Shown here: piece after piece, positions 6,501 through 57,900 of the stretch | Position numbering within the stretch: position 1 is the first letter of the stretch | How the letters are laid out: each line of letters begins with the position of its first letter | Source of the DNA: Phoenix dactylifera | Lineage: Eukaryota > Streptophyta > Magnoliopsida > Arecales > Arecaceae | NCBI RefSeq assembly: GCF_009389715.1 | Contig: NW_024067938.1 | Location: 124,001 to 188,000 of the forward strand | Length of the DNA stretch: 64,000 nt | Direction of reading: 5' to 3' | Made by a program: the position numbers and the translations under genes | The notes under the pieces: model-generated | Database searches by the model: none | What the model was told of the DNA's origin: nothing | The model's input: the letters and a program-made list of their open reading frames with translations, nothing else

Positions 6501-8784
6501 GTTACCATTTGTTAAATATTTAAAAATAAATATAATATATTAAGTACAATAAAAAATAATAATGAAAGTATTTTTTTATGGATGGATAATAGCAATACTA
6601 GTAACAACTAACAACTTAGTGCTTATCACTTAGTATCGAACATCAATAGCAATAACTATAACTTAATCAACATTTTAGCACGATCAATACCCGTACCAGG
6701 CTTACCATAAACTGATATCAAAGCTATCATCAGCAAGTATCCGCTTCACCTACATGGGCCCATATAAGAGTGGACTATATATGTAGCTCCAGAATGCTAG
6801 GTGAGCTCACATATGTCTAATACGATATTAAACAGCCAACATATGCTAAATTGTCTATCTTTTTGGTTCATATGCCATATAACTGCATAGTGTACCATAT
6901 AAAGGCAATGCGGTGCAGTCAAGGGACCGGATAAGCATATGGGCCATTTTAAAACACTGAAATTTATATCCTATAAAACATGGTCTTTATGATGAGGCTA
7001 CAAAAGATATTGTTAAACAATAAATCCACATTAGGAATCATAGATATTTTAAATCACATATCATATCTGCATCAAAAATGTATCAAATAACAATGCACAT
7101 CGGATACTTCTCAAATACATGTTGGATACTCATGTTAAGTATCCAATTTTTCAAATATAGAAAAAGACTATGAATACTTGTCAGATTCGCTCAATATATT
7201 TCTCTTCCTCTTACAAGATAGCATATCTTCCTTAATGGAAATGGTGGCCAACTATTAATTTTGTCTAATGTGAACTGTAAGTTTTAGATGTCTATTCGTT
7301 GGTCTCTAACTCATTAAAAAATTTAAGTGATATTTGAATTCGAAACACAAATATCCCAACTCCAACCCCCGACAAGAAGATAAAAAAGCATGAATACATC
7401 TTGACACAAACTCTTGACCACTGAGTCACAAAGCACACACTACAACTAATACTCAAGGATTATTATTAGCATCTCGACAATCAAGGTGATTCAAAATTAG
7501 CCTTTCAACCTATCTGCATAAAATGCTTTTATATCAACGCACCTTATCCACTCAAGTATTCTACTAGAACAAGAATTTTAGAAAAATAAAAATAATGTCA
7601 AACATATCAATGATGCAAAAGGAAGCACCATATTTTAGATATCTTTTTTCATTTTCCATTTATATTCCTATTATCAATCATATTTTAACTATTCCTTTCC
7701 AACTGCTGCCTCGACATAATGCCAAAAGCTTTTGCAATCAGATAGACAAAAGTTGAACAAAGAACTCATCAATCATGGTTTCTTGGCTTTGTGACGGTAT
7801 CTAAACATTTAGTTTTATCCAAAAAAACAGTTTATGATATAATTCGTGCAACCTTGCCATGTCTGAGATTTCTGCAGCTTCATTAGGTAGAAATGTTTTT
7901 TCCCCCAAAATCTCAACAAGAATGTCAACCTAAATATTCAGCAATGAAACAGGACCAACAACCATATCTCATATCTGAACGCGAGAGGATAATGTACACA
8001 TTGTTCGACCCAGCTTCATTATCAGAAATGATCTTTCCATCCTTCAGGAGAGTTCCAAACATCGGCAACTTTCAAGAATAGAAAGCAAATTCTCTAATCC
8101 TTAATCAACCCAATTTTAAGCCCCGGCAACCATTTATTTCTCATTCTCTAAGTATTCCAGAGCACTAACACACAAATATAACATCACGCGCCTTTCAAAA
8201 CATATCGAAAGCCCCCATGGCAGGAGATTCTGTTTTTTTTTTTCGCGGATCAACGGATCAACATTGAGGTGATCTGGAAAGAAAATTCTTATACAGCTCA
8301 AAACCAAGAAACAACACGATCGAGAACAACGTCAAAACATCCCAAATATCGATCAATCCGTTCTTTAAAAACAAAAAATTCCCAAAACAGGCACAGATAC
8401 ACAGAAATCTGAAGCGCTCGAATCTATAAAATACGTAGATGAAAACAAAACAGAAAAGCAAATACGAAACCGATCGATTTTGTGGTTAAACAAAAAGAGA
8501 TCTCTGTCGACGCCACCAAAAACTAGTCTCGAGAAATCAGTCATCGGATAAAGAAACAAATCAGCGATTAATGACAAAAAAAAAAAGAAGAAGAGGGAGA
8601 AAGAGAGGGCATACGTGTAGGTGCCGACGACGGGAGAGAGTAAGAGGGTGGCGCTGAGCCAGTTCTCGGAAACCTTTTGGTGGATCTTTCCGGGGAGATC
8701 CTTCCACAGCCCCGACATCACCTTCTGCTGGAACGGCGACAGCGCGTACACCACCGCCTTCATCCGCACAGGCGTCTTCCCCAT
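3576..8784 (-). CDS. QCR8: Cytochrome b-c1 complex subunit 8 (ubiquinol-cytochrome c reductase), two exons
   Basis: This is the small membrane subunit of respiratory complex III in the inner mitochondrial membrane (UCRQ family). Exon 1 is 8784-8615 and exon 2 is 3624-3576. They join in phase (170 + 49 = 219 nt) to give 72 aa, the length of plant QCR8. Exon 1 starts MGKTPVRMKAVVYALSPFQQ, then KVMSGLWKDLPGKIHQKVSE and NWLSATLLLSPVVGTYTY, the single membrane segment. Exon 2 supplies VQYYLEKEKLAHRY, the conserved C-terminus. The donor is AC|GTATGC and the acceptor is GCAG|TTATG. The 4,990-bp intron is very long for such a small gene. It carries a triplet microsatellite and one copy of a dispersed repeat, but no ORF that I can name. 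Assignment is firm because both exons match family blocks. Confidence 0.92.
4695..4740. repeat. Triplet microsatellite in the QCR8 intron
   Basis: About nine CGT/GTC units run into ATC units and then (AAC)n. It is purely a simple repeat. Confidence 0.9.
4757..4945 (-). repeat. Dispersed repeat, copy 1 (QCR8 intron)
   Basis: The reverse complement of this stretch aligns along its length with 53707-53872. Both copies contain tttagggccatt, a preceding (g)gatccagattgt/ggatccaaattgt, a following pair of ATCxGGAT/ATCCAGAT blocks and the tail catatgatttgaacaacaa / cataagatttaacaacaaa. No coding capacity and no clear inverted ends are visible, so the class is open. Confidence 0.7.
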
Positions 8785-10216
8785 CCCTTTCTCTCTCTTT
8801 CTCTCCCTCTCTTTCCTCGATCCAAAGACCTCTCTTGCTTGCCGAGAGTCCGAGCCCTATCGCCGCCCCTCTATACTTCCGGGAGGACTTCTCTGGAACC
8901 AGCGTTTGGCACGTGCTATGCACGTGACCATTAGATGATCGTCAATTGCTGACTTGTAAATCTCAAGTTTCATCAAAGAAAAAAAAAAAATCTTTTGGAA
9001 GTTCTTAGGGGATGGCTGTAATCAAATGGTTTCAATGGATTACTGTAATTAGATGATTTGTTATACACATGATACTTGGATTCTATCTAAATTTTAAGGT
9101 AATAGCAAAATTAAATGCAACTAGATTGGGTCAGACTTTAGTGAGGTCAAATTCGGACAGCTATATGAAAACTCTCAACCTATATCTAACCCAATCAATA
9201 CCGCTCAACTCATTGAAACCACATATCAATAGTTATGACTAGATGTGATTTATTTGATCTCTAGCCTAATCTATATTGCAGGGTCGATTGTTTATTTATC
9301 AAATCTAATTTGTCTAGTTTTGATTTAAATTTTTGCAATTACTGGCTGTCCATTAACAAAATAAATTAAATAGTATTGCAAGAAGTTTAATTACTGAAAA
9401 ATAAGAAAATCTTGACCAGGACTCCGACTAATCTAAAATATTATAATTCAAAAAAGTAATCTTTTCACACGAGTTGAGCGATATCGAAACTTTTTTAATC
9501 CATATTAGACAATTAAAATTTAAGTTAAGAAAAAATTTATCCGCACCTCGGACGACTAAAGAATCTTGAACTCGAACACAATCCTAGTTCTTGAATCTGA
9601 CCAATTTTTGTTGCCCCAAATTTCTAGCATTTATTGTGTTGAGGCAAGAAAACATCGCAAGGCATTCTCAAAAAAAAAAAAACAAGTTGTAATTTTGGCG
9701 GGAAAGAAAATTTCGTGCAAATCCACCGTTGGATCATTCATAGGTTGCTTTGAGATCCATACAGGCAGATGAATGATAGATTTGGATAGCTCTATGTGTC
9801 ATCCAATGGGGGGATTTGCATGAAGGATGAGAAACCTTCTTTCACACTATAGATAAATTCATTATTTTTTTTTCCAATAAGGTGGACAGGACATACAATT
9901 TTGGTGCAAATATGTCTAACAAAATTAGAGAATAAAATATCTTAAAGTGCAGTCAGAATAACTGACATTGTACTCTATAAGGTGCTCCGCTACAAAAGAG
10001 GTGATCCAGCACAAATATCTACACTTCCTCAAAACTCCTTGGAACGTTAAAACCTCACCCGCAACAAGTTGAAGTACACGATGTCCAAAGCCCCATGTTC
10101 GGCCTTCCACCTAAGCTGGCTCTCGCTTCAAAAGGAATAGCTCCCAAGACCATGAGAAACCCCCAGGATGTAAGTAGTCAAGTCATATACTCGGCGAGGT
10201 TGGTGGAACTATGGAA
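8785..10216. other. Intergenic, upstream of QCR8
   Basis: This contains the QCR8 leader and promoter (8785 to about 8930, C/T-rich) and then AT-rich sequence. An open stretch on the minus strand near 10110-9925 reads like an old exon but matches no family I can name. Nothing else is supported. Confidence 0.4.
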
Positions 10217-24649: not shown

Positions 24650-32507
<7,858 letters not shown>

Positions 32508-38100: not shown

Positions 38101-41100
38101 ATTTTGAAGCAGATTTTTAAAATACCTTACTCCAAGGCCCAATTGTCCATTGCTGTTCATCGCATTGGGGATACCCTCATTCTTAATACAGGGTATGCTG
38201 TTAAATAATTGAAATTTTGCTTTAATGCTTTGCATGATTCTTAATGTCTTGAATTTTTGCCAAGGATAGCCCTGATGTTGAAGAAGGAGAAAAGATGTAC
38301 AGAAGACAGAATAACCAATCCAAAGGTTCGGATCCTTCAATCTTCTTGAACTTCGCCATGCACTCAGTGAGAGCAGAGGCTTGTGATTGCCCTCCTAGTC
38401 ACCAACCATCATCCGAGAAGCAGTCAAGTTCCACTATCTTACCAGGACATTTTGGACATATGGAGGGTACTTTTGTATCTGCTACAAACTCCCATGCTAA
38501 GTCTCAATTTTTTGATCAAAATGCCAGTGGCAGGCGGAAGTCTTCACAAGGGAATCATGACAAATTCTTTTGGGGCACCAAGCAGAACAAGCAAAAAGGT
38601 AGAAGGCCAGATCCTATCAAGAAGACCTCAGAAGTTGGTGAAAAGCCTAGATGCCCGATGCAAGAGTCAGATAAGTTCAGGAGAGAGGGAAATAATGGTT
38701 TTCTGAGGGTTTTGTTTTGGCAATTTCACAACTTCCGGATGCTTTTAGGCAGCGACTTGCTTTTATTCAGCAATGAGAAATATGTTGCAGTGAGCCTGCA
38801 CCTCTGGGATGTCTCAAGACAGGTAAGGCACAACATACTGAATGTTTTAGCTTGATTTCACGGGGTTTTGTCATTCAGTAGTTTGTTTTGACAGGTCACT
38901 CCATTGACATGGCTTGAGGCCTGGCTTGACAATGTCATGGCCAGCGTGCCTGAGTTAGCTATCTGTTACCATGAAAATGGTGTTGTTCAAGGTTATGAAC
39001 TTTTGAAAACGGATGATATATTCCTTCTTAAGGGCATATCTGAAGATGGTACAGCTGCATTTCATCCTCAAGTTGTCCAACAGAATGGGCTTTCAGTTTT
39101 GAGGTTTCTTCAGGATAACTGCAAACAGGATCCTGGTGCATACTGGGTATGGACACCTAAACTTTTTGGATATCCCTGATTTGAAGATCTAATCTACTAT
39201 CTCTTTATTTCCTCCCTCCCAGCCCCATTCTTCCCACCTCTATAGTATAATTAAAAATTTGCCTCATTTGTTTGGTTATATTATGGTAATAGCCCCATGA
39301 TTCTGTGTCCAAATTTACTTTTGCAGTTGTATAAAGGTGCAGGAGAGGATGTAATACAGCTGTTTGATCTGTCTGTCATACCTAAAAACCATTCAACTGA
39401 TGATCAAGAAAAAAGCTGTAGTTCTTTTCCATCCTTAATGAATAAAGGGAGAAGGGATTCTTTATTTTCTCTGGGGGTTCTTCTCTACCGTATAGCTCAC
39501 AGGTTGTCACTTTCAAAGGTACCAAAACCGGAACTTTTATGTTGTTCTTGATGCAACACTGATTAGCTGATCTCTAGCTTGGAACTTTATGTTTTGATGT
39601 TTTTGCTGCAGGCACCTGATAGTAGAGTGAAGTGTGCAAAGTTTTTCAAAAAATGTTTGGACTTCCTTAGTGAGCAGGATCATCTAGTACGTTGGTTTCC
39701 TAGCATTATTTTGCAACTTCTTTCTCAGTTTCTTCATTATTGAGTCTCTGCATTCAATTTATATACTTATAAAGTAGCTATTGCTAATAATGTAATTTGT
39801 CATTTGTTAGGTTGTTCGTGCGTATGCTCATGAACAGTTTGCCAGACTCATTCTGAAATGTTATGAGGAACTGGAGTTACCATCAGAATCTTTTCTTCTA
39901 GAATCTGAAGTTACAGTTACTGACCTGGAAGATGAATCCTCAGAATTCTCTCTGGAAATGTTTGGATCAGGGATCCAAGAAAAGGAAAAGGGTTCATCTC
40001 ATGCTGCAGAAGATGCCACCTCAATCAAAGCTGGGACTAGTCTAGATAGTTTGGAGTCAGAGGAATCAGGGACATCAAAGTTGGAAACAGAAGCATGTCT
40101 AAGTCAAAACATTTCTCTATCTGCAACAAACGGAGCTGAAGATCTTACAAAAAACATGGCTAGTTCTAGAACAAATGATGAGTTAGATATGTGTCAGATT
40201 GCAACTTCCCCTCATTTAGTTTGCACAGTTTCTGATCCAATCTCCTCTAAGTTAGCTGCAATACACCATGTGTCGCAAGCTATCAAGTCACTCAGATGGA
40301 AGCGCCAGCTGCAGAATGCTCAGGAGGGTTTAATTGATCATGGAAACAAAATTCATGAAAGATTTTCCTCTGTCAACTTCTCTTTATGCACATGTGGTGA
40401 TTCTGACTGTGTTGAAGTTTGCGATATCCGGGAATGGCTTCCAAAATCAAAGATGGATAATAAGATGTGGAAACTTGTTCTTTTGCTGGGAGAGTCATAT
40501 TTGGCACTCGGCGAAGCTTATAAGGAGGATGGACAATTGCATCGAGCTCTCAAGGTCGTAGAATTAGCATGTTTAGTTTATGGGTCAATGCCTCAACATC
40601 TTGAAGATGCTTATTTTATCTCATCTATGACCAGTATCTCATTATGTCAGGTGAACTTTAGAGATGATAAAGAGAAGACAAATTTGGTTATGGATGGTGC
40701 AAAAGATTTGGACTCAGAGTTCTTAGAAGATGGATATGCTGCTGATCAGTTCTCTCCTATTTACCTGTTCTGGTCGAATGCATGGACACTTGTTGCCGAT
40801 GTATTTGTGGAGTATCATAGAACAAGGGGTAAAGAAATCCCAGTACAAGCAGAAAGAAAAACATCAGGAAATGGACTGCGAATGTCAGATGAAATTGTAA
40901 AGGAGGTAAAACGCCTTAAGAAAAAGTTGGGACGGTACAAGCAAAACTGTAGCAGTTGTTCTTTGATTAACTGTAGTTGTCAGAGTGATAGAGCAAACAG
41001 TGGTAATAGTGCAAGCAGTAGCAGTGGAGATTCTCCCTCGTCTTATGGCAGAAAACAGATCAGAAAATCGATGATAAGAAATTCCTCAACCTCACCCTTT

Positions 41101-44100
41101 GCTCGAATTCAAGATGATAATAATTCATACCAAATAGAAAGTGCAAATTTTTCTGAAGGTGAGCAGTTGCAGAATAATAATGATAGTGATATGCTTGTTA
41201 ACCCAGAAAATACATGTAAGCTCAAAGAAAGCTATAAATCTGCTGATGTTCCAGTTAGTGATCATGTCAGGGAAGTTCACACCACAGGTTCTGGAGCAGT
41301 TGGTTCTGAACCAAGTTCAAAAGATGCATCTGAAGTGAGAAATGGAGGTATTTTTAAGTTTCTTGAAGGTCCTAAATATGGAGATGTCGAGTACAATCTG
41401 ACTGCTGCTATAGGTTGTTATGATGCAGCTAGGAATGCAATGGATGGATTTCCTATTGGTTTAGGAGAACTTCATTCTGTTTTGAAGAAAAAGGGATGGG
41501 TTTGCAATGAACTAGGCCGATATAGACTTGAGAACAGAAACTTGATCAGTGCAGAAAGTGCATTTTCAGATGCTTTAAAAGCATTTAAGGAAGTTTCAGA
41601 CCATACCAATGTAATATTGATTAACTGTAACTTAGGTCATGGGAGAAGAGCATTGGCTGAAGAACTGGTTTCAAAGATCGATGAGTTTAAGAAGTATGAT
41701 CTCCTTCAAAATGCATATAAGCAAGCTATGAAGTCTGCTAAGTCTGAATACTTTGATTCACTGAAGTACTATGGGGCTGCAAAAGCAGAATTGACTTCTC
41801 TTGGTAATGAGGCTGATAGCATGTTGTGTAACGAAGTATGTACACAATATGCTCACACATATCTAAGGCTTGGAATGCTTTTGGCAAGAGAAAGCATTTC
41901 AGCTGAGGGCTACAATGATGAGTTTCCTAATGATGGGAGAACCAAGGAACATAGGAAGTATGAGTTGTCTGCAAGTGATGCTTTTAGGGAGGCTTTGTCT
42001 ACGTATGAATCCCTTGGCGAGTCACGCAAACAGGAGGCTGCTTTTGCTCATTTCCAACTTGCTTGCTACCACAGAGACTTGTGTTTGAAATTCTTGGATT
42101 TGGACCTCAAACATGTCAAGCATTCTAAATACGACAACAGATACCGTCAAAAGGCCAAATGGTATGCTTCTTTAACAGAAAAGAACTGGCAAAAGTCCAT
42201 AGATTTCTATGGTCCAAAGACACATCCTGTTATGTATATGAATATCCTTCTGGAGCAATCAGCCCTTTCTTTCAGCCTTTCAAATTCATTTCACTCAAAC
42301 ATGGTATGTTTCTCTAGACTTTTTTATTTTTACCTTTATCGTCAGTGTAGCAAAGTATATAACTGTAATTTGCTTGGTTCATACAGCCTTGGTTCTAAAA
42401 TACTTGTCTTGTACATGTTTGGTAATATATGTCCTCGGTTTCTATGGGCATGTCGCTTATCATCTTGCATTTTGTTGTCACAAATGTGCTTGCATTTTTT
42501 TCCTGTTGAAGTTGTCAGACAGATTTTGGCAGATTAAACTTGGTTCCTCCTTATCTGTATGCTTGTTTAGGATTTATAATTGACCATACTCAGGTGTATA
42601 TAGTCTGCTATTTGTGTTCCTTTCAATGTGAAAACATTCGTGTGCTTGTGTGCATGCTAACCTGTATGAGTGCTGTAGCGTCACAATACATTTATACATC
42701 TGTACCTCCATTTTAGGTCTTAGAAAATAGGATACAGCTAAGGGAAATTAGTAAACTGAAGATGAAGATCGAAGGAGACTTAGTAGTGATGCTTTGGAAC
42801 TTGCGCATTCTGTTCATTGCTACAAGTGCTTGGTTGCTACTTGCAAGTAGCTAACTCATCAGATCGTTCCTATGGTGATTACATGCAACTAATGCTAAAA
42901 TTTAGCAGCATGGGCCCTTGATACTGCAAATCTGGGAATGCCTTCAGCTTCCTTCCATGAGACAAAATATGTGGAATAACAATGAGCCATAATATTTGAA
43001 GAGCAAGTGGTTGCTACTGGACTGTGTCCACCATTTCAAAAAGTGAATTGAAAATTTGGCTTGTACTGGCTTGGGTTGTTGTTTTGTCAAAACTTGTGCT
43101 GTGATTTTGAAGTGCTACACCAACCCACTTGATCCAACATTCTCTAATCAGTAATGTGCCTTAGCGCGGGTGCGGCTCCAAATATCTCGAGTCTGAGCCA
43201 TGGTGCCTAATTGAATGAGCAGACCATAGGCACAAGGACAAGAGCAAAGGTTAATGTTGTTTCATGGACTAGTTACATTTATGTGATTGCAACATGAAGT
43301 TGGAACTTAAAATGAGCAAATTTGATGATGTCATGCTTGATAAAGTATATGTATTTATTTTGAAGGGAATCTAAAGATGTAGGAAAAATTTCACAGGAGA
43401 TAGCAGAGACATGTTTGCTCCATAAAGCTGATGATCAGGGTCAAAAACCTGAATGACTGTGTATTCTGGTTTTGTTACGTGGAAAATTTGAGTTGCTTAT
43501 GGACGAAATTGATGGCTCAAACATGACAGCTTTGCATGACTATTTAGATTTTATGGGGATTGAGTTCCAGGATATAGGAATTGAGTGTGCTTATTAACAA
43601 AAGGTGTCTTATTAGTGAAATATGCGTACCATGAGATGTACTGCTTAGCTAAGCTATCTAGGACCTTTTCAAACTTGAGGATGTGGAATGATGCTTTTTC
43701 GTTCAATGATCAGGTCTTATCTGGAATCTGGATGCTGGGAAATAGGCACTTGATGTGGTGGAACTGAGTCTGAAAAGAAAAGAAGGAAAATTTACATTTG
43801 ATGTTAAATACTCCAAATCCACTAATTTTTAAGATGACCCTATAGATAGATTATCACAATGCTGTTTGTCAATGTGAATCCTATAAATTAAGTTCGGTTA
43901 TCCAGATTTAGATTTATATGTTAGCATTCTATCTATTCATGTTGTAACATATATTTTTTTAAAATAGATTTTTGTAGTGTATGCAAATCCATGTTCCAGA
44001 GTCCATTTGCATGCAACTCTGAGTTTAATTTGTATTGCCTGGGTCTATACCAGTATGACTTGGTTTTTTGGCAAATTTACAGTAAGCAGATCCTATTCCA

Positions 44101-45984: not shown

Positions 45985-48900
45985 CTAGGTGAAGTAGTCT
46001 TGCCGCACCACAGTGAAGAACTCACCAGATAACAAATCATCATCCTTGTGCTTTCCCCGTTCATTGCCTTGGATGTGCCAGAAGATTTTAGGCGAAAGTG
46101 GTGTATACAAATCTGCATATTTGCAGGCACCAGTCACAGGAGCTTGATTATGGTCAATAAAACACCTTTTAAAGTATGGAAAATTACACATATTTTTGCA
46201 AAAGAACTAACATATAAGCCATTTGAGCATGTATCAGGTATAGACCTCATGATCCATCCGCAAACTTGGTATGTTCCGGTATATAATTGCTCATAAGCAT
46301 GACCAAACTGCACTTGCTTACATGTGTTTGTAGTAGACTACGCGTAAAATCCAACCGAATAAGAGACCAATTTGATTAGGTCAAATCTATAGATTGTGTT
46401 TGCCAATAAAGATCCAAATGGTTGAATGTCGGCTATGACTTATAAACCATTTACAAACCAAAAGTAATTTATTTTGGAAACCCCTTGCCTATGCATCAAT
46501 CCATCTCAAATGGGCAGTTCAAATAACAGAAACATGAAATTATGTTCTGGTTTGATATACATTGGTTAGAAACATCCAAAATAACTAAATTTGGCTTGCG
46601 TGTGTTTTAAGATGCCTAGATGAAGATTGACAATTTGCATTCTCAACTTATATACTTTATTATGCATTTTAGGACATTAGCTGTATTTGTTATGTCCACG
46701 TTGGGACAATTTGATGCTTTGGCAACTAGTCTCCAAAAAAAAAATTATAGGTTTATAGGCATTGGAGGCATAGTAGCTCACATTTCAATGTTCCATTTTG
46801 GAACACCCATCTTCAAATTTGAACTGATCAAATTTGGTCTTGAATCCAATCAACATTACCACACAGATAAAGAATTCAAACATGCACGGTATCAACAAGA
46901 TAAAGACAAAAGGATGTTGATCTAAGATATTGCAAAACCAGTTCTACTGTGATAAATCTCAAAATGTTCAAATATCAAACAAGATCAGAAAAGAGTGCAT
47001 GGAAATTCCACATATTTGGATAGAAGCCAATTTTTTTAATTTCAACTTAATGTACTTCTAATTTCATATATTCTCATAATAATGGTAGGGAATCACAAAT
47101 AAGTATTTGATTGTGCAACGTCTTTAGAAAGAAGACTCAATTTGGCTTAGCATGCTGAGACAACATATAGAAGATTAATCCATGTTAGTCCGTAAAAATT
47201 AAGAACATCATTCTGTGTCATCTCATGCTAATTGCTAAAAATAAAACTAGACCTTAATGGAATCATATGCACAATACAGTGAATGGAAATTGAAGTCCTT
47301 ACATATGAGTTGGAGTGATAGATGTATTCCACGTAAATATACTTTATAGTTTGGTTTGTATTGGAAATCCTTATTATATAAGAAATTGGGCTTTTCAAAC
47401 TGGCTTTTTAAGAAAATGGCTTTTTAGATCTACCAAAAAAACACAAAGTGCTGATTTATTTTTACAAGTCATGGTTTCTACATAGTGAGCATGAAGGCTT
47501 CAGGTGGTGCTTTACAGGTAGCTGTGCATTCCCTACACCTGCAAATTAGTAGCTTACTCAAACAAGAATCCCATGGTCCGGAAATAGGTAAGGAGCTAAA
47601 ATCTCAGTAAACAACAGCGAATGACATAAGGTTCCAACTTCCAAGACATACTATCTTGCAGCCTACTATAGTGTGCCAATCAACAACAGCATGCATATAC
47701 CTGTAGAGGAAGGTGGATCTGGTTCTCTTGTAGAATGTAATACAGTTGTTCCTGAAAGTACTGTAATAATCCCGCAAATTTCTGATGCTATATTGCTTGC
47801 ACTCTGTCCAGACCAATCCTACATAGTTGCAAAGCAGATTAATGCTTGTTAACCAGAAAAATAAGCCATAGTGCATAAAATTTACAGTTTTTATACCTTG
47901 AACATAATGGCACTTGCAAATATAGTAAGAGTGGTGAACATGGCATAGTAGATGGGTGAAACAACTGCAGTGTTGAAAGTATCCAATGCCTGAAAGAATG
48001 ACAATAAATATGGAGCAATTATAAATCTGCATTTTGAATCTTTTGATCTCACAAGAGTCAAATAAAAACTAAAAAACGACAAAAGCATTGTCTTAATTAA
48101 GTCTCTTCAACATCATAATCTTGTTCATTATGCAATAAGATAATCATATCAGAGGAGAAAAAAAATAATGTCCAATAAGCAATGACATAAATTTTCAGCA
48201 AGACACAAAGGTGAACAAAAAGTAAGTATACAGGGTATCTTTACTATTTAAACAACAAATAAAGCTTTCCAACATTGAGGAAGCTTTGAAAAGGTAACCA
48301 CGAACCATGATACTTGAACTACATAAAATGTTCTGAAGATAAAAAACCAGCAACTTGATAGGCCATTCCTCTGACATTAAATACGCAGTAGGAGAACTAG
48401 ATGGCCAAACAACAGACAAAGCTTTCCAAGATATAGAAAGCTTCTTACAAAATTATCATGATAATTGGACTTAATCAAATGCTCTGAAGATATGAAAGCA
48501 ACTACCCGATAGACCATTCCATGGAGACCAAATATGTAGTAAGAAAGCAAAACAGGAACATTCCAACAAAAGTTTGCCGCATCAAGACTGTTCTTTTTTT
48601 AAGAGAACACATTAAGATAATCAATTTAAATAACTAAATGATAACTTCTACCTAATAAATATTGGACAATACAATAGCATAACAAACAATATTGTTTGAT
48701 CCAAAGACCAAACAAAATGCCAAACTAAAACGGCAATAAAGTTGATCTAAACCAAGGTTTGTCGAACCGGTACCGAGACCCATACCAGCCGACCGGTACG
48801 GTTCGGACCGAACCGAACCGGATGGAACCGTCCGATTCCGTCAAATTCTGGCAGTTTATGGCCGATTCCAACCAAATCCAATCAGTTCTGGCCCCTACCG

Positions 48901-51900
48901 AACCAACCCGGTCAGAGACCGGATCGGCTCGGTTCAGGCTGAACCGGCCGGTACGGCTCGGTTCAGGCTGAACCGGCCGGTACGGCTCAGTTCAGTATTC
49001 CTTGATCTAAACACAAGATATGTGCCTTAGAAATGAATGCGGACCCCCTGTATCAAAATCTAATTCTCTTTATTTTATATCCATGCCAAGCCTAGAAGCT
49101 ATCAAGGATAGATCCCTGATTAATGAGGTTGGACAGTGGATGAGAATCAAGTTACAAACCAACAGTACACAATTCTCAAACTTCAATAAATTTACCATGA
49201 TCAACAAAGTCAGCCCACATAGATGGGATTAAGCTTGCAAGGTAAAGTTGACGTATGGGTCATATTATGTATAACTCTAGATATCTAGTTGTAGTTATAC
49301 CCGGCCACGCTTTTGATTTAGGTTCATATTTTAGCATGTATATTCATCATATCTTCTCAACTTAATAAAGTTGCTGCCAGTTTGGTTAGCCAACTCCTAA
49401 CCCAGCCAATTCACTTATAGCTGGCTTATTAAGATAACATGTATTGATTTTGAGGGCAAAACCACTCAAGTCATGCAATATTCATTTCTTGTGCATCCCA
49501 CACATGGACCAGGCCGATAACTAATCCAGTCTAGAAAAAAAAAATTCAACCATACCGACCTATGCTGCCTGATTGGATTGCTAGATATTGAACTGTATTT
49601 GCTAAAAGGAAAAAGTGAACTATAAGAATAAGTGGTGCAACATTTTATTGAATCCTTCACACAAAATATTGGGTTGGAAGAATCCACATTAATTGTAGTT
49701 TTTGATAATAAGCAACAGTATCCATTGAAAGGATTACATATGCAGCATACCTTCCTTGCCTATTATTATTATGAGGGCACCACATTACGGGAAGATGTAG
49801 AATGATCTCACCATGCATGACCTTCTGCATTTCATTTCCGAATCTAGAAGTCCTTATTACTTGTCACAGTGCAAACTCTAGTGAAAGAGCATGGTGATCA
49901 TGTCTCTCATCCTTGAAAGGTCACACCCACATGCAATGTTGTTAACATCGGGATTGAGTAGGGGTGGCAAAATATGACCCGACCCGTCAACCCGACCCGC
50001 GTTCGACCCGCCATAAACAGGTTCGGGTTTGGCCTAAACAGGTTCGGGTCGTAAACAGGTTGACCCGTTTAACCTGTTTATTAATTGGGTCGGATACGGA
50101 TTTTAAATGTCTTGACCCGTTTAACCTGTTTAACCCGTTTAGATTGTAATTGGGCTGCTGCCGTTCATCTAAGATCAGGTGGTTTATAATCACTAGGAGT
50201 TCTCACAAACCCTAGGTCCCTAAGCCTTTTCTATTCCCCGTGCGCTGTGCAACCATGCGGCCGTGTCGTGCGAGGGCTTGGAGTTGGAAGCACCGAGCAC
50301 GCGAGTCCGAGAGGAGGGGAAGATCGCCGCGGTTAGGAGGAGGGGAAGAAGATCGCCCCGAGTCTGAGAGGAGGGGAAGACGAAGATCACCGCGGTTAGG
50401 AGGAGGGGAAGATCGCCGTGGTTAGTATTTTAATGTTCTCATAATTTCGCTACTGCCCCAATTTTTTATTTTCCTTTTCTTTTGTTTTGGTTTCAATCGA
50501 TCTAGGTTAAGCAAGTTTTGCAAGGATTTCTCACTTGATTTAGATTTTTATTCACAAGGTTCTGAAGATTTTCTTTTGGATCAGCAGTTCTTCCGATGAA
50601 GTGAGAGCTTCGTTACTTTTTTTCCTTCTTTGTGAAGTTGTTGCTCTTCTGGTCCTCGGTGTTCTCCGATTCCGGCTTCTTTCTTCGGTCGAGTGAGAGC
50701 TTGGAACCCTAGGATCGTCAGATCGGACGGCGGATCGGCCCAGAAAATAGAGTTGAGAACCGTTTCTTGGATAGGAGAGGTGATTTCATCCATCCTTTTT
50801 CCGGAGTTAAATCTTCGATTTTCTTTCTCTCTTTTTATATGCAATATTGCAATGTTACTTATTTTCTTACCCGGGTTTAAAATCCATACATTCGATTTCA
50901 ACCTCCAACGTAGTAGCATTCAGGAAGGATTTAAGAAGATCGACTATTTGCTTTTTTTTTTTTGACAACTTGATAAAATGACCAAGATACTGTTTTTTTA
51001 AAAAAATGCCGATCCTATTCATCGACTTCTTTTTATTAAATTAATAAATATATTTGCTGGCTTTCAGGTGGAAGCTCCTGGAATTAGCTGGATCTCTCTC
51101 ATTGCCGAAAGCAATTCCATTTACTTGGATCTTAAATAAGATTATCATCTACCTCATGTTTGTGAATGTCTGCACTGTAATACTAATTTGGTAAAAGGTG
51201 TGCTTTTTGCCTGGCGCTGTTTGGAATTTTCTGAGATTTGGTAGCATGAGCACAAGACGGGGTTTTAATTTCTATTTGATATTATTTAAGTGTCATACGG
51301 TATTTTCTTGAGCATACTGCTACCCCAAGGATAGCACTAAATCCTTTAGCTGACCTATCAACTATGTGAGAACATTATCTGTTGTTTGATTTGAAGTACT
51401 GCTTTGTTTATTCCTTGAGAGCTGAGATCAATGAAATTCCATACCGCTTTGTGGTTGCTGGTCGATTTTTCTTCAACATGCGTGGTCTTTGAAACTTGTA
51501 TTTGTGGAGGTTGGTTTTGTTGGTTGTTGTTAAATTTGGCTCCTTTTTCCCCTGAGAAAGTTCTTAAGTTTGGCCTCTGGTTTATTCTTTGTGTCTTGCA
51601 GATAATATTATAGTAGTAATTCCCTCTGTGAAATCTTTCCTTTTTCTCTGTCTTTTGGACCTCTTCCATGCATAGATGTTGTTAAAGGATTGCTCCTTAT
51701 TGCATTAACAGAGACCATCTCAATTTTATGGATAAGTATCGCCTTAGTTATTGTTGTGTCTTGTTGTTTTTATTTTTATCTGTGTTGTTTTCTTGATTCA
51801 TCGTGGTTATACTGTTGTAATTTAGGCTTGTTATGCTGTTTGTTTGTTATGCCATTTGTGTCCCTCGGTCAAATCAGTTTAACTTGTTATGTTTGGTCAC

Positions 51901-54900
51901 TTTGTTTCTAAGATTCTGGTGTGGATTACATGCTATGTGCTAGTGTCACTGGGGTAGGTTCTGTATATTACTGGTCCACTACATTTCTTTCTTCTATCAT
52001 ATTATGTGAGTTGCTTCTGCTCATAAAACAAACTAAACTGTGTTCCATGGGTCTCTACTGCATATTGTTGTTTCAGCACTTTCTGTGCCTCTAAATCTTA
52101 GGATTTACATTTGTTGCTTCACTAACCTCTCATGTATCTCAGATGCCTTTCATGATTTTCAAAAGCTTTGGATTATATTGACAAAATTGTCCTTGTCTTT
52201 TCTCTAGGATGCTTACGGGTACCATTTATGGATTACTGATGTTAGTCTTTGCTTGTTAAATTAGATAGAGATTGTACCAATAAGCTGCAACCTTACTTCA
52301 GTGAAGCGTGTCCTTTGCAGGCAAAAATTCTCAAGGTGAAATTGTTGTTAACATTGAAAGACTACTCAAGTGCTATTTCAGAGACTGGATACATACTTAA
52401 ACAAGATGAAGATAATTTGGAGGCACTACTGCTTCGTGGCCATTCTTATTATTATCTCTCAGACCATGATGTTGCTACATGGTTTGACTTATGAAAATTC
52501 CTATACAGAATTACAGACATATGTAAAAGGTTTCAAACCTTGTGTCATATGTGTACTCTTTTGCACTTTGCTGCAATGATGTTCTCCTTTTATTTAAGCT
52601 GCAGTTATTAGCTCAACTCTGCAGATTATCACTTCCAAACATTTGCAATGTCTAATGTCTGCACATGTTTAACATTCTGTTGCATGCTAGAGCTAATTTA
52701 TTCTAGTGTTTTTGGTATGCCAAGAAAAAGTGAACAAAAAGAACATGAAAGTTCAGAAGAAAGTTTAAGATGCAGGCAGTCCTATATCTATGTTGGTAAC
52801 CATGCATATTATTCAGATGTGATATACTTTGCTAAAGGAAACAGATTTAATCCTAAAGGAAACAAAAATTAAAGCCTAAAGGAAACAAAAAGGGGCAAGC
52901 AATCTTTTTTTCAACTAATTTTCTTAATTACTGCAAACAGGTTAAACAGGTCAGGTCGGGTTAGGCAAACAGGTTAAACAGGTCGGGTTAGGATGGGTTG
53001 GGCTAAACAGGTTAAACAGGTCGGGTTGGGTTGGGCAAACAGGTTACCTGTTTATTAAACAGGTTAAACGGGTCGGGTCGGGTTACCTGTTTAATAAACA
53101 GGTCAGGTTCAGGTTGTAATTTCTGACCTGTTTAATAAACAGGTCAGGTTCAGGTTTATGATTTTATGACCTGATCTGTATCTGACCCGACCTGTTTATG
53201 TCTGACCCGACCCGATTGCCACCCCTAGGATTGAGTCGTAACCATATAGGGAACTAGACCGGATCAGATCGTAGATCATCAGATTTTTCTGATTTCTTTT
53301 AGAACTTTTAAAATATAAAAAAATATGAAAATTGGAGTATGTGGCAACTATAAAGCAAATGAATGGAGAATAAAAAGCTGTAGCACAAAAACTCTAGTTT
53401 TGACCAATATAGGCCCATCTATAGCATGTCTAATGAAACAAATGTTTTGTTTGGTTATTCAAGAAATTTATATATTTTTAATCAGTTTAGTTATCCCTTT
53501 AGGTAGAATGTTTTAGAAAACATGGACAGGTATTTAACATATGGTTGTAAAATTACACATACCTGCATCTTATTTTTAACTTATGAACTTCGATAACAGA
53601 CTTAATAATTTTATTGCCAATACTTATTGGTGATAAGCAATTTAAAAACCACAGTCACATAAATTATAGAGAATAGACCTACCAATGATGTAATATATAG
53701 TTAGCATAATCAAGCTGGATCTATGCTCGAAAGGAATGTATAGTCCAACATGGACCTAAATCTTGTGATCCTACAACGATCCTAACCCAAGGATGGGATC
53801 CAAATTGTTTAGGGCCATTCTGATCCAGATCATAAGATCCGAATCATGAGTCATAAGATTTAACAACAAAGCCTATATAATATCCATTGATTGTCATATT
53901 GTCACCAACTTTAACCTGATAGCAAAAGGCAGGCTAAGCTTGGAGAAGTAATTGGTGACAGACATCAATTTATAACAAGTCCAAAATTCGATTCTTTAGC
54001 TAGTCTCAAAAATGATTCAAGAAAACTACCCAGTCAACTCTAGACTTTTCGAAAGTCTCATAGATATGACTTACTAGAGAATTAACTAAAATGTGGCACA
54101 TGCATGCACATGTTTGAGAGGAGGGAAGTGCTCCATCTCCCATGTTTCTTTCCAATTTGAGATTTCGTATCCATTACATTTATGCAGAGAAGACAATCTC
54201 CAAGATCTCTCTAAGGCTATGTCTCTAAGATCCCTTTCCTTTTTGAGTTCATGTATGTGTCTGAAGAGAGGAGGGAGACACATCATCTCCCAATCTGTTT
54301 TCCTGATTGAGATGATGTCTGTAGCCACATCCATACACACAACAAAAGGCACAGATTTTCATGTTATAATATGGCAGATGGTGCCATCCATCAGTCAGTT
54401 AAAAACCCATACCGCCACTAAGTTAACATAGCTTATTCCATTGTCAAATTGCCAAAGCCACTTGTCAGGAAGATCCATAATAATTATGTCCATGTTTCTA
54501 ACACCAACACCCTCTTTCTCTTTTACACACACATGATCCCTTTTATGAAGGCTTGCATAACTATATAAGGAATGTATACCATTAAGTTTACAAACATGCA
54601 TAACTTTACTGAATTTTAGTGAGCATCGAATGGCAACACATATACAAAAGTGCACTTGGAAAACCTTAAATTTTTTTTACCTCTAACCTTGTTATCTTTG
54701 TGCCACTAGAATCATCAATTGATATCCATTACACATCTTTGACTCATCTTAAAAATCATATATCCATATCACAGGACAAAAAAGTTATTTGAGCATGAAA
54801 CTTCATGCATGTAAAATCTTATGTCAAACCGAGCATCAACAACACAATCTGATATTGACTATGACATGTTAAAAAACTCTAAAAACCTGGAGTTACATAC

Positions 54901-57900
54901 TAGGATACATGAGAAATGTTTAACCTAAAAAGAAGATCAGTAAAATAACATAGCCATGCAAACAAAAATCTGTTTCATGGATAAACATCAACAAGCAACA
55001 CAATGCACAAGTACACTGAATTTTCCATCACGAAGACTCAGATTGATGCAAGTCACAATAAATTTAATAACATTTGAGATGTAAAGTCTAAAATTCTTTT
55101 ATGTTGATGTTTACAAACCAAAGCTTATGTGCAAGCCCTCTAAACATGTTAGACCTGAGATACATTGCTCGCCTATTCACTAACAATTTAAGCTTTTGGG
55201 TTCAGAGGTTGGTTAACATGGTATCAATGTTAAGGTTGCTGGATGTCGAGAGTTCAAATCCCTTCCAAGTCAATATTTATTTAATTGACCAGGTCATCAT
55301 CTCAATCCAATTATTCACCATATCCGTAGTCTAGGCTAATATTGTCGACCTATTCCTTAACAACTTAAGCTTCAGTATCACACAGTTAGTAAGCATAACA
55401 GAAAGATTTTCTAAATCATTTCTCGCTGCTTGCATTACATCTTTGGCCTCCCCTCTTATTTTCAAATGATTGAACCTTTGTACCAAAAAGGATAAACATA
55501 CTTGACATATAATTAAGACAAAGCTCTCTTCCATCGAGGGTTACTAAGCTGCAAATGCCTAAAGCATTCAAATGGTTAGCCTCACTTTAGAATCCATCAG
55601 TGCCAAACATAGCCTTCCACTAATGTAATCCTTCCTAGTTCCACTCTATCAAGTTATTAATGGTCCACATCAACATTCCAACCTTTGCTATTCCTAAATT
55701 TCTTAAATTTTCAGCATTCTACAGCCTGCTTTTTATAATGAAGTTGGTAACATAATTAATGTATGAAGTTCATTTTGTTCCAGTAATAGGCAAGATCCCT
55801 GGAAATAAAAGTGATCTATTTGGCATATATCTCATCCATCCCCTACAACCTTTTTTCCAAGAAGATTTAAACCACAAATATTCACACGACAAATTATGAT
55901 CCACGGTTCATGCTATAGCAAAAGGTCAAAATAAATAATGGTCTTCGATGACTTGATTTATGCTAAGAAAGGTCAACATCTACATTATGATCAATCAACT
56001 TGATGAACAACTCTAACAAAGATATTGAATATATTGTTACCAATGTAAAAAAGTTTATGTCCAAGTCCCACAGGCTTAATTCTGAGGGCACATAGAGATA
56101 CTCTTAAGGATGTATTAACAGGATTGAGGATATATGCAGCATGACAATAAGAAGGTTGAGATACAATTGCAACAACAAGCTTTTGGATGTGGTAGTGGAC
56201 AACTTCAAGTCCATCCTCCTTACAAATGTTGTAAAGCCAATAATGACTTGCAAATTTGGTTGAATATCAAACAGAGCTTATGGTGGAACCTTTGATTCTC
56301 TATTTACCAAAACTAATATACAATCCGCAGATAAAATTTATTAAGAACAAAGCCCAAAGCAGAACTGTAACTAAGAGGTGAACCTGAATAAGTATTATAG
56401 TCAACTTCAATTGTAAATGAGAATGGTGGGAAGTTTTATAACAAACTGTAGATGCTTTTGCAGTGTTTATCAGATATGTCCTATTATTACTTATCCCTTT
56501 CTTTTTTCTTTTTTTTTTAAAAAAAAGCTACTACGACAACCTATAGCAGCATTGTGTGGGTGAGAATATCAAGTACGAAAGATGATACAAACACATAAGA
56601 CAAACATATGCAAGCTTATGATGTTGAAGATGCATGATGGAATTGAAATAGTTGAATCATAATTAAGTATACTATACGAAATTTACGAGTTGAGGTGAAA
56701 TTGACTCGAATGAGATGACCATTGACAGCAAAATTTATACAAGGTCTGAGAAAGAGTGGCTTAGGATCTTAAGGAAGGTCCTCTAAAGATGATAGGAAGA
56801 ACCAAGATCACCTGAAAATTTGTTGGGGGAGATTTTGTATGTTCGCTTGTACTAAGAAATTAGCTTTGCGAAGATTGTGCAGAAAATACGAGCTTTTTAG
56901 TTATAGTATTTCGAATTGCAGCTTAAGCAAATGGCACAATTAACACACTTTCCATGGTTTCCAAGGTTCCGACAATGTTCAAGCAAATTACAAGGTACAA
57001 TAGGGAATTGCAGTGCTACTATTTGATGTTTTGTATGCATAATCCATAGTCAGTCCACACCGAACAGCATTGTTAATGTCCAAAAAATCTTGACTCACCA
57101 TCGTGAGTAATGTTAAAATCAACTCGTTGTTTGCAAATTAACTTAATGAAGAAAGAGTATGATATCCCAGTTATTTTCTGATAAGATAACAAAAGCATAA
57201 ACACCGATTTGAGCTGGTTAGAAACTGCAATTACTGATTCAGGCCTCACCTTGTTCAAGTAAATTAACTGAATAATGATGCAGGTGATTGCAACCATAGT
57301 AAACACCCATGTCTGAAAATAACCAGCCTGGTTGATGCCTTCAATGGTAAGCTTAATGGCAATTCCTATGGCTTTTATACTCATCACCTAACCAACAAGA
57401 GACATGCATGAAGATCACACACTTCAGCAATCACACGAGCAGGACATGAGAAATATTCCAACATTACCCAAAGCCGACAACAATTACCGTCAAAGATCCA
57501 ATCGTGGAACATATGCTCAAGTACACCATTATATTTGTCTGCCCATACCGCGGAGAGCAATGCAACATAAGAACCAGCGACACTGCTGCTACCGAAGCTG
57601 TATACAAAAGAAAGGCTGGAGGAAGAATAGAAATGATTCCAAACCATGCGTCAGAGACAACAGACAGCAAGGAGACAAGGAAAACCCTAATGACAAGGAT
57701 CAAAAAAATTATACCTGGCTGAGTTGCCAGATCCCAAATCTGCTCCACGGAGCTTGGGGTCTTCTCCTCCGGGGCATGAAGCACGATCACCGTGGACCCC
57801 GCGATACAAAGCACACAGCCTAACACACCCATCCTCTGGAGCTTCTCCTTGAGAATGAAATGAGCCAAAACAGCACTGCCCAACCGATATTCCCAATCAA

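Follow-up and report, generated by a model that had tools for sequence, protein, structure and literature searches.

A probable Pack-TYPE hAT element carrying two P58IPK-like exon pieces within a NIPA intron of the date palm

Has a cut-and-paste transposon brought part of one host gene into an intron of another? This question is raised by a locus of the date palm (Phoenix dactylifera) on a stretch of 64,000 nucleotides (contig NW_024067938.1 of assembly GCF_009389715.1, positions 124,001 to 188,000 of the forward strand), which as a whole is referred to here as the window and from whose first letter all positions are counted. An earlier reading made without database searches, the sequence-only reading, had taken positions 49959-53227 for a non-autonomous hAT transposon within a NIPA intron that had picked up genomic pieces from at least one host gene, perhaps from two. 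According to our analysis, sequence comparison makes it highly probable that this interval is a non-autonomous Pack-TYPE hAT element which carries two P58IPK-like exon pieces together with an intron, in order and orientation, and which resides in the NIPA intron. The capture from one gene is thus the part of the earlier proposal that stood, while a contribution from a second gene is suggestive only.

The element begins with the terminal inverted repeat TAGGGGTGGCAA, ends with the exact reverse complement of this repeat, and has a copy of the target site duplication GGATTGAG on either side (Table 1). Both features are perfect, as had been read off the letters before: the inverted repeats are identical at 12 of 12 positions with the mismatch beginning at position 13, and the duplication is identical at 8 of 8 positions with no extension to a ninth. 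The abrupt end of the inverted match at position 13 indicates that the ends are short and hAT-like, and the one perfect duplication common to both outer ends indicates that they belong to a single insertion. The window was scanned for perfect 12-bp inverted pairs delimiting an element of 72 to 15,012 bp and flanked by a perfect 8-bp direct pair. The locus was the only place found in the 64 kb, and 200 dinucleotide-preserving shuffles yielded one match in all (about 0.005 per window). Relaxing the ends to 11 bp gave one extra match, located within the repeats of the right arm, and at 12 bp the locus stood alone. A second copy of the element was not found in the window, where two other matches to the ends carry two mismatches and are expected by chance.

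Inside the ends lie two subterminal arms, both crowded with AAACAGGT and ACCCG words on either strand. Of 20 occurrences of AAACAGGT in the window, 19 fall into the 480 bp of the arms (5 left, 14 right) and one lies elsewhere outside the element; the 2,789-bp interior contains none. Such clustering is the pattern expected of hAT binding sites, and AAACAGGT may by analogy be a putative site of this kind. In maize Ac/Ds, subterminal AAACGG repeats are reported to be bound by the transposase (PMC3260210). Here the left arm contains three copies of AAACGG, the right arm and the interior one each, and the window as a whole 19; being spread in this way it is not specific to the arms, unlike AAACAGGT. 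The ends of the element also differ from the 11-bp ends of Ac. The Ac/Ds family has these 11-bp Ac ends and at least three AAACGG in its arms. A separate feature, a 23-bp tandem repeat (CTAAAGGAAACAAAAATTAAAGC, 52832-52891), lies just inside the right arm, where the AT skew turns from T-rich to A-rich; possibly it is near a capture breakpoint.

The features seen that are characteristic of hAT elements are the 8-bp duplication, the short inverted ends and the clustered subterminal repeats in both arms. Terminal inverted repeats of high-copy grapevine hAT families measure 8-23 bp in the grapevine survey (PMC2528002). Those characteristic of Pack-TYPE elements are the carriage of host-gene DNA and the lack of a transposase in the scanned reading frames. 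There are 29 stop-to-stop open reading frames of at least 48 amino acids that overlap the element; 27 were scanned against Pfam, the other two being frames that run across the left end. None of these 27 of 29 was hAT-like, the few matches having E values of 0.077 or more, far under the curated cut-offs, in agreement with the earlier claim that no transposase-like frame is present. Rfam returned no match for the whole window at gathering thresholds. Other classes of gene-capturing elements were ruled out. Pack-MULEs duplicate 9 bp of their target and mostly have long inverted ends, whereas the duplication here is 8 bp without extension and the ends are 12 bp. Helitrons have neither inverted ends nor a target duplication, and both are present here.

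The cargo was recognised with a protein sequence taken to be Arabidopsis P58IPK, a query chosen in view of exon B only. By tblastn it matched the plus strand at 52156-52476, with E about 1e-18, in two consecutive exon pieces, the match to exon A having turned up unsought. Splicing of the 102-nt intron at its GT-AG borders restores the frame exactly where the query protein runs on, and the spliced peptide shares 52 of 72 aligned residues with this protein at a score of 281, as compared with 59 for the best of 500 shuffled peptides. No P58IPK match was found elsewhere in the window at E values up to 1; it had been proposed to check whether the match runs past the inverted repeats, and within the window it is confined to the element. 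The retained intron indicates that the captured source was most likely genomic DNA rather than mRNA, and it rules out a retrogene.

The P58IPK segment of the sequence-only reading thus proved to be a real match, but not a single exon-like segment of the tetratricopeptide repeat (TPR) region: it consists of two exon parts with an intron. Its extent, given as 52288-52481, needs correction accordingly. Only 52321-52481 is exon B; the preceding 52288-52320, open in frame with exon B, was rejected as coding since the two-exon alignment shows it to be the intron end, and the tail of exon A lies further upstream. Ahead of 52156, AFHDF is read in a different frame before SKAL. This apparent frame shift suggests decay, although the exon may start elsewhere than assumed. 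A very permissive search upstream gave no convincing N-terminal exon of P58IPK, its other matches being taken for noise. We presume the name P58IPK from the plant protein used as query and the exon structure, not from a database record. The piece is very likely a captured gene fragment, part of a P58IPK-like gene (DNAJC3-type co-chaperone).

The insertion site lies in a gene for NIPA, a plant magnesium transporter. With a query sequence taken to be Arabidopsis NIPA, tblastn placed NIPA exons on the minus strand on both sides of the element, and the reading frames of two upstream exons matched Pfam PF05653. The intron has canonical splice sites (donor AAG|GTGAGG, acceptor TTTCAG|GCATTGG) that join ...LNK to ALDTF..., and 3,269 of its 9,260 bp are contributed by the element. 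The intronic location had been read correctly from the start. As the captured exons run opposite to NIPA, they cannot enter NIPA mRNA in sense.

Table 1. Positions of the element, its parts and the intron that holds it, in window coordinates.
Feature	Position	Strand	Remarks
hAT-type non-autonomous element	49959..53227	+	3,269 bp
Left terminal inverted repeat	49959..49970	+	TAGGGGTGGCAA
Right terminal inverted repeat	53216..53227	-	exact reverse complement of TAGGGGTGGCAA
Target site duplication, left copy	49951..49958	+	GGATTGAG
Target site duplication, right copy	53228..53235	+	GGATTGAG
Left subterminal arm	49959..50145	+	187 bp; 5 AAACAGGT (both strands), 10 RACCCG
Right subterminal arm	52935..53227	+	293 bp; 14 AAACAGGT (both strands)
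CpG-rich 5' interior	50146..51040	+	resembles gene 5' end or transposon leader; from change point
CpG-poor, T-rich, intron-like stretch upstream of exon A	51041..52143	+	source presumed only
P58IPK-like exon A, 3' part	52156..52218 (approx.)	+	start perhaps 52144, then frame shift near 52155; encodes 21 residues
Retained intron	52219..52320	+	102 nt; GT-AG, GTACCA...TTTGCAG
P58IPK-like exon B	52321..52481	+	161 nt; TPR region; encodes 53 residues; donor GT at 52482
Downstream interior	52482..52934	+	presumed start of next P58IPK intron; A-rich past ~52700; from composition
NIPA intron holding the element	47990..57249	-	9,260 bp, phase 0; tblastn, splice sites, Pfam

Several observations weigh against the reading of this locus as a hAT element with P58IPK cargo. 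The hAT label is based on the ends, the length of the duplication and the arm repeats; neither a transposase nor a classified relative backs it. When the ends were shortened to 8 bp, with the 8-bp duplication kept, the real window contained 9 matches as against 129 in all 200 shuffles. The excess consists mostly of simple or repeated sequence, and it implies that the shuffles are too mild there and that the background is understated. As to the cargo, Pfam gave no match for the reading frame of exon B, and the spliced peptide reached sub-threshold matches only (TPR_1, E 0.13; PhyR_sigma-like, E 0.25). Among solved structures the spliced peptide was closest to TTC21B (E 1.3e-5), followed by DNAJC3 at 0.077 and 0.2; exon B alone was closest to designed TPR proteins (E 0.00028), with DNAJC3 at 0.25 and 0.47. 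That TTC21B comes ahead of DNAJC3 can happen with a short TPR piece. Neither a parental P58IPK gene nor a sister element was seen in the window. Finally, no relative was found in viral or prokaryote contigs or in plasmids: patterns of the element's ends had no match in viral contigs, blastn of the element against plasmids was negative, and none of 62 pattern matches of the P58IPK peptide in viral contigs and of 278 in prokaryote genomes was confirmed. For plant DNA this says little. A literature search with the TAGGGGTGGCAA string matched only titles unrelated to transposons, and one on palm hAT elements gave nothing relevant among the matches listed.

The 5' part of the interior is set off from the P58IPK side by its composition. 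A change point of CpG versus GpC lies between 51023 and 51056 (44/35 to the left, 13/75 to the right), and none of 2000 shuffles gave one as strong, CpG against GpC being the sole measure. The observed/expected ratio of CpG is 1.39 in the left arm, 0.98 in 50146-51200, 0.22 in 51201-52934 and 0.61 in the right arm. The flanking NIPA intron, with 0.28 and 0.32, is near the P58IPK side and unlike the 5' side. A tandem repeat of 26-31 bp resembling GAGGAGGGGAAGATCGCCGCGGTTAG occupies 50302-50425 within the CpG-rich part.

Two sources may account for this. The first is a second host gene, whose CpG-rich 5' end (its first exon with the beginning of the intron that follows, ~50146-51040) would have been joined to P58IPK in the same orientation; we hold this reading tentatively, as somewhat short of an even chance. 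Along with the sharp change at 51023-51056, it is favoured by the succession of a GC-rich part at ~50250-50425 and T-rich sequence, and by the lack of a convincing N-terminal P58IPK exon upstream in the permissive search. The 5' part has no protein family match in Pfam, however, no parental locus was seen within the window, and the change in CpG would also fit a single source with graded composition, or a leader that belongs to the element. The suspicion of another gene's first exon, voiced in the sequence-only reading, is backed by the sharp change at ~51.04 kb and is suggestive only. The second source, possible and rather doubtful, is an untranslated leader inherited from an autonomous hAT ancestor, with P58IPK as the sole cargo. 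Ac has a CpG-rich leader, and the 5' interior adjoins a left arm that is likewise high in CpG. Against such a leader stand the lack of a transposase remnant alongside, the lower CpG ratio of the right arm and the lack of a family copy for comparison within the window.

How the P58IPK DNA arrived may be envisaged as follows. A hAT transposase made elsewhere and supplied in trans would recognise the ends and arms, and would move or have moved the element. Genomic DNA of P58IPK would have been copied into it at the DNA level, from the P58IPK locus during repair of an excision break or a stalled fork, or by template switching. Among published models, repair errors are proposed in the Ds2-22 report (PMC3260210), in-place gap filling or else fork stalling with template switching in an animal survey (PMC8277862), and, for CACTA elements, joint aberrant excision of neighbouring elements in a review (PMC13317346); the literature leaves the choice among them undecided.

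The capture would most likely be earlier than the jump into NIPA. It is unlikely that the P58IPK DNA entered a hAT element already residing in the NIPA intron by gap filling at an internal break, the composite never having moved. This would agree with the perfect target duplication, which dates the ends and not the cargo, but the sources of such filling tend to be nearby, and neither the 49,958 bp on the left side nor the 10,773 bp on the right side contain a P58IPK match; a source at a greater distance is conceivable. Capture before the jump is favoured by this lack of a nearby parental copy, whereas nearby parents are common in animal gap filling. The duplication itself is compatible with cargo arriving before or after the insertion and is not proof that the composite moved as a unit.

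For the present state of the piece, an inert and decaying passenger would be most likely, since the exons are antisense to NIPA and the rest of P58IPK is lacking. It is improbable, though worth stating, that in the hAT element the P58IPK exons became joined, in the same orientation, to a promoter-proximal and CpG-rich 5' end from a different gene, which would have placed a ready-made chimeric transcription unit in the NIPA intron; if true, such a unit could be a source of antisense or small RNA directed at NIPA or at P58IPK. Expression or co-option of the captured exons, say in a chimeric or antisense transcript that acts on either gene, NIPA or P58IPK, is very improbable. Exon B does have a splice acceptor and a donor around it, and a maize study describes a Pack-hAT that lengthens an exon and supplies a new splice donor, with merged transcripts (PMC8903248). 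In the date palm element, however, the exons run antisense to NIPA, the frame of exon A seems to be lost near 52155, and the search for P58IPK turned up neither end of the gene. Scarcely tenable is a P58IPK fragment pre-existing in the NIPA intron, around which transposons inserted: breakpoints inside the element were not located, which would leave room for it, but the outer ends share one perfect duplication and hence one insertion, and a fragment older than that insertion was rejected as no P58IPK match occurs outside the ends in the window.

The same intron may hold a second, small hAT-like element of 252 bp (48753-49004). It has an 8-bp duplication (ATCTAAAC), 5-bp inverted ends (CAAGG) and an interior rich in CGGTTCAGGCTGAACCGG-like repeats; 5-bp ends combined with an 8-bp duplication occur 87 times in the window, and judged by its ends alone this candidate may be due to chance. 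An EDRF1-like gene converges with NIPA from the left, with exons on the plus strand (38253-38855 and 39811-42537; Pfam EDRF1_N, E 2.6e-6; TPR_EDRF1, E 0.0041, below the cut-off). Pfam further identified a dirigent protein (1189-1764, plus), cytochrome b-c1 subunit 8 (8365-8856, minus) and an exon of a Cys/Met-metabolism PLP enzyme (28777-29169, minus). The window is an ordinary gene-bearing plant region.

Elements of this kind are on record. The nearest precedent is maize Ds2-22 (2011), a non-autonomous hAT element with two exons and an intron (exons 5 and 6 of an ILR1-like gene), whose family shows 8-bp duplications and subterminal repeats and for which capture at the DNA level was argued from the intron (PMC3260210). 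Ac/Ds elements have 11-bp ends, AAACGG repeats and, in this instance, a located donor gene, while the date palm element has TAGGGGTGGCAA ends, the AAACAGGT repeat and a donor that has not been located. The Pack-hATs of maize and rice (2022) resemble it in having hAT ends, 8-nt duplications, no transposase and captured coding DNA, and sometimes in lying in genes; they were found by Bg and Ac core ends and are clustered, whereas the date palm element is one copy with other ends (PMC8903248). Grapevine Hatvine-6 elements (2008) have their ends in common but differ in their interiors, where matches to genes, introns and exons included, are frequent. They differ by a common transposase coding sequence, 13-bp ends and a 9-bp duplication, as against no transposase seen and 8 bp here (PMC2528002). 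Animal Pack-TIRs likewise hold host DNA between the ends of DNA transposons, 208 of 370 being hAT; most are considered products of gap filling at their present site, with nearby DNA often serving as template, and for the date palm element no parental copy was seen in the rest of the window (PMC8277862). The word hAT has no match in the text of a 2026 review of plant gene capture (PMC13317346). The view that the carriage of host exons is far less well documented for hAT elements than for other capturing elements is out of date, as such elements have been published from grapevine, maize and animals (PMC2528002, PMC3260210, PMC8903248, PMC8277862).

The kind of event is hence real but already described, and the date palm locus is a good Pack-hAT candidate. 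Being a single locus, it leaves the overall picture unchanged. What it offers is a clean single-locus case of a cut-and-paste hAT element with intron-bearing gene DNA, whose ends are unlike the Ac and Bg ends of the maize and rice survey. Its retained intron, perfect duplication and sharp break in composition would make it, given a base-by-base comparison with the donor, a good test case for the uptake of host DNA by excisive transposons.

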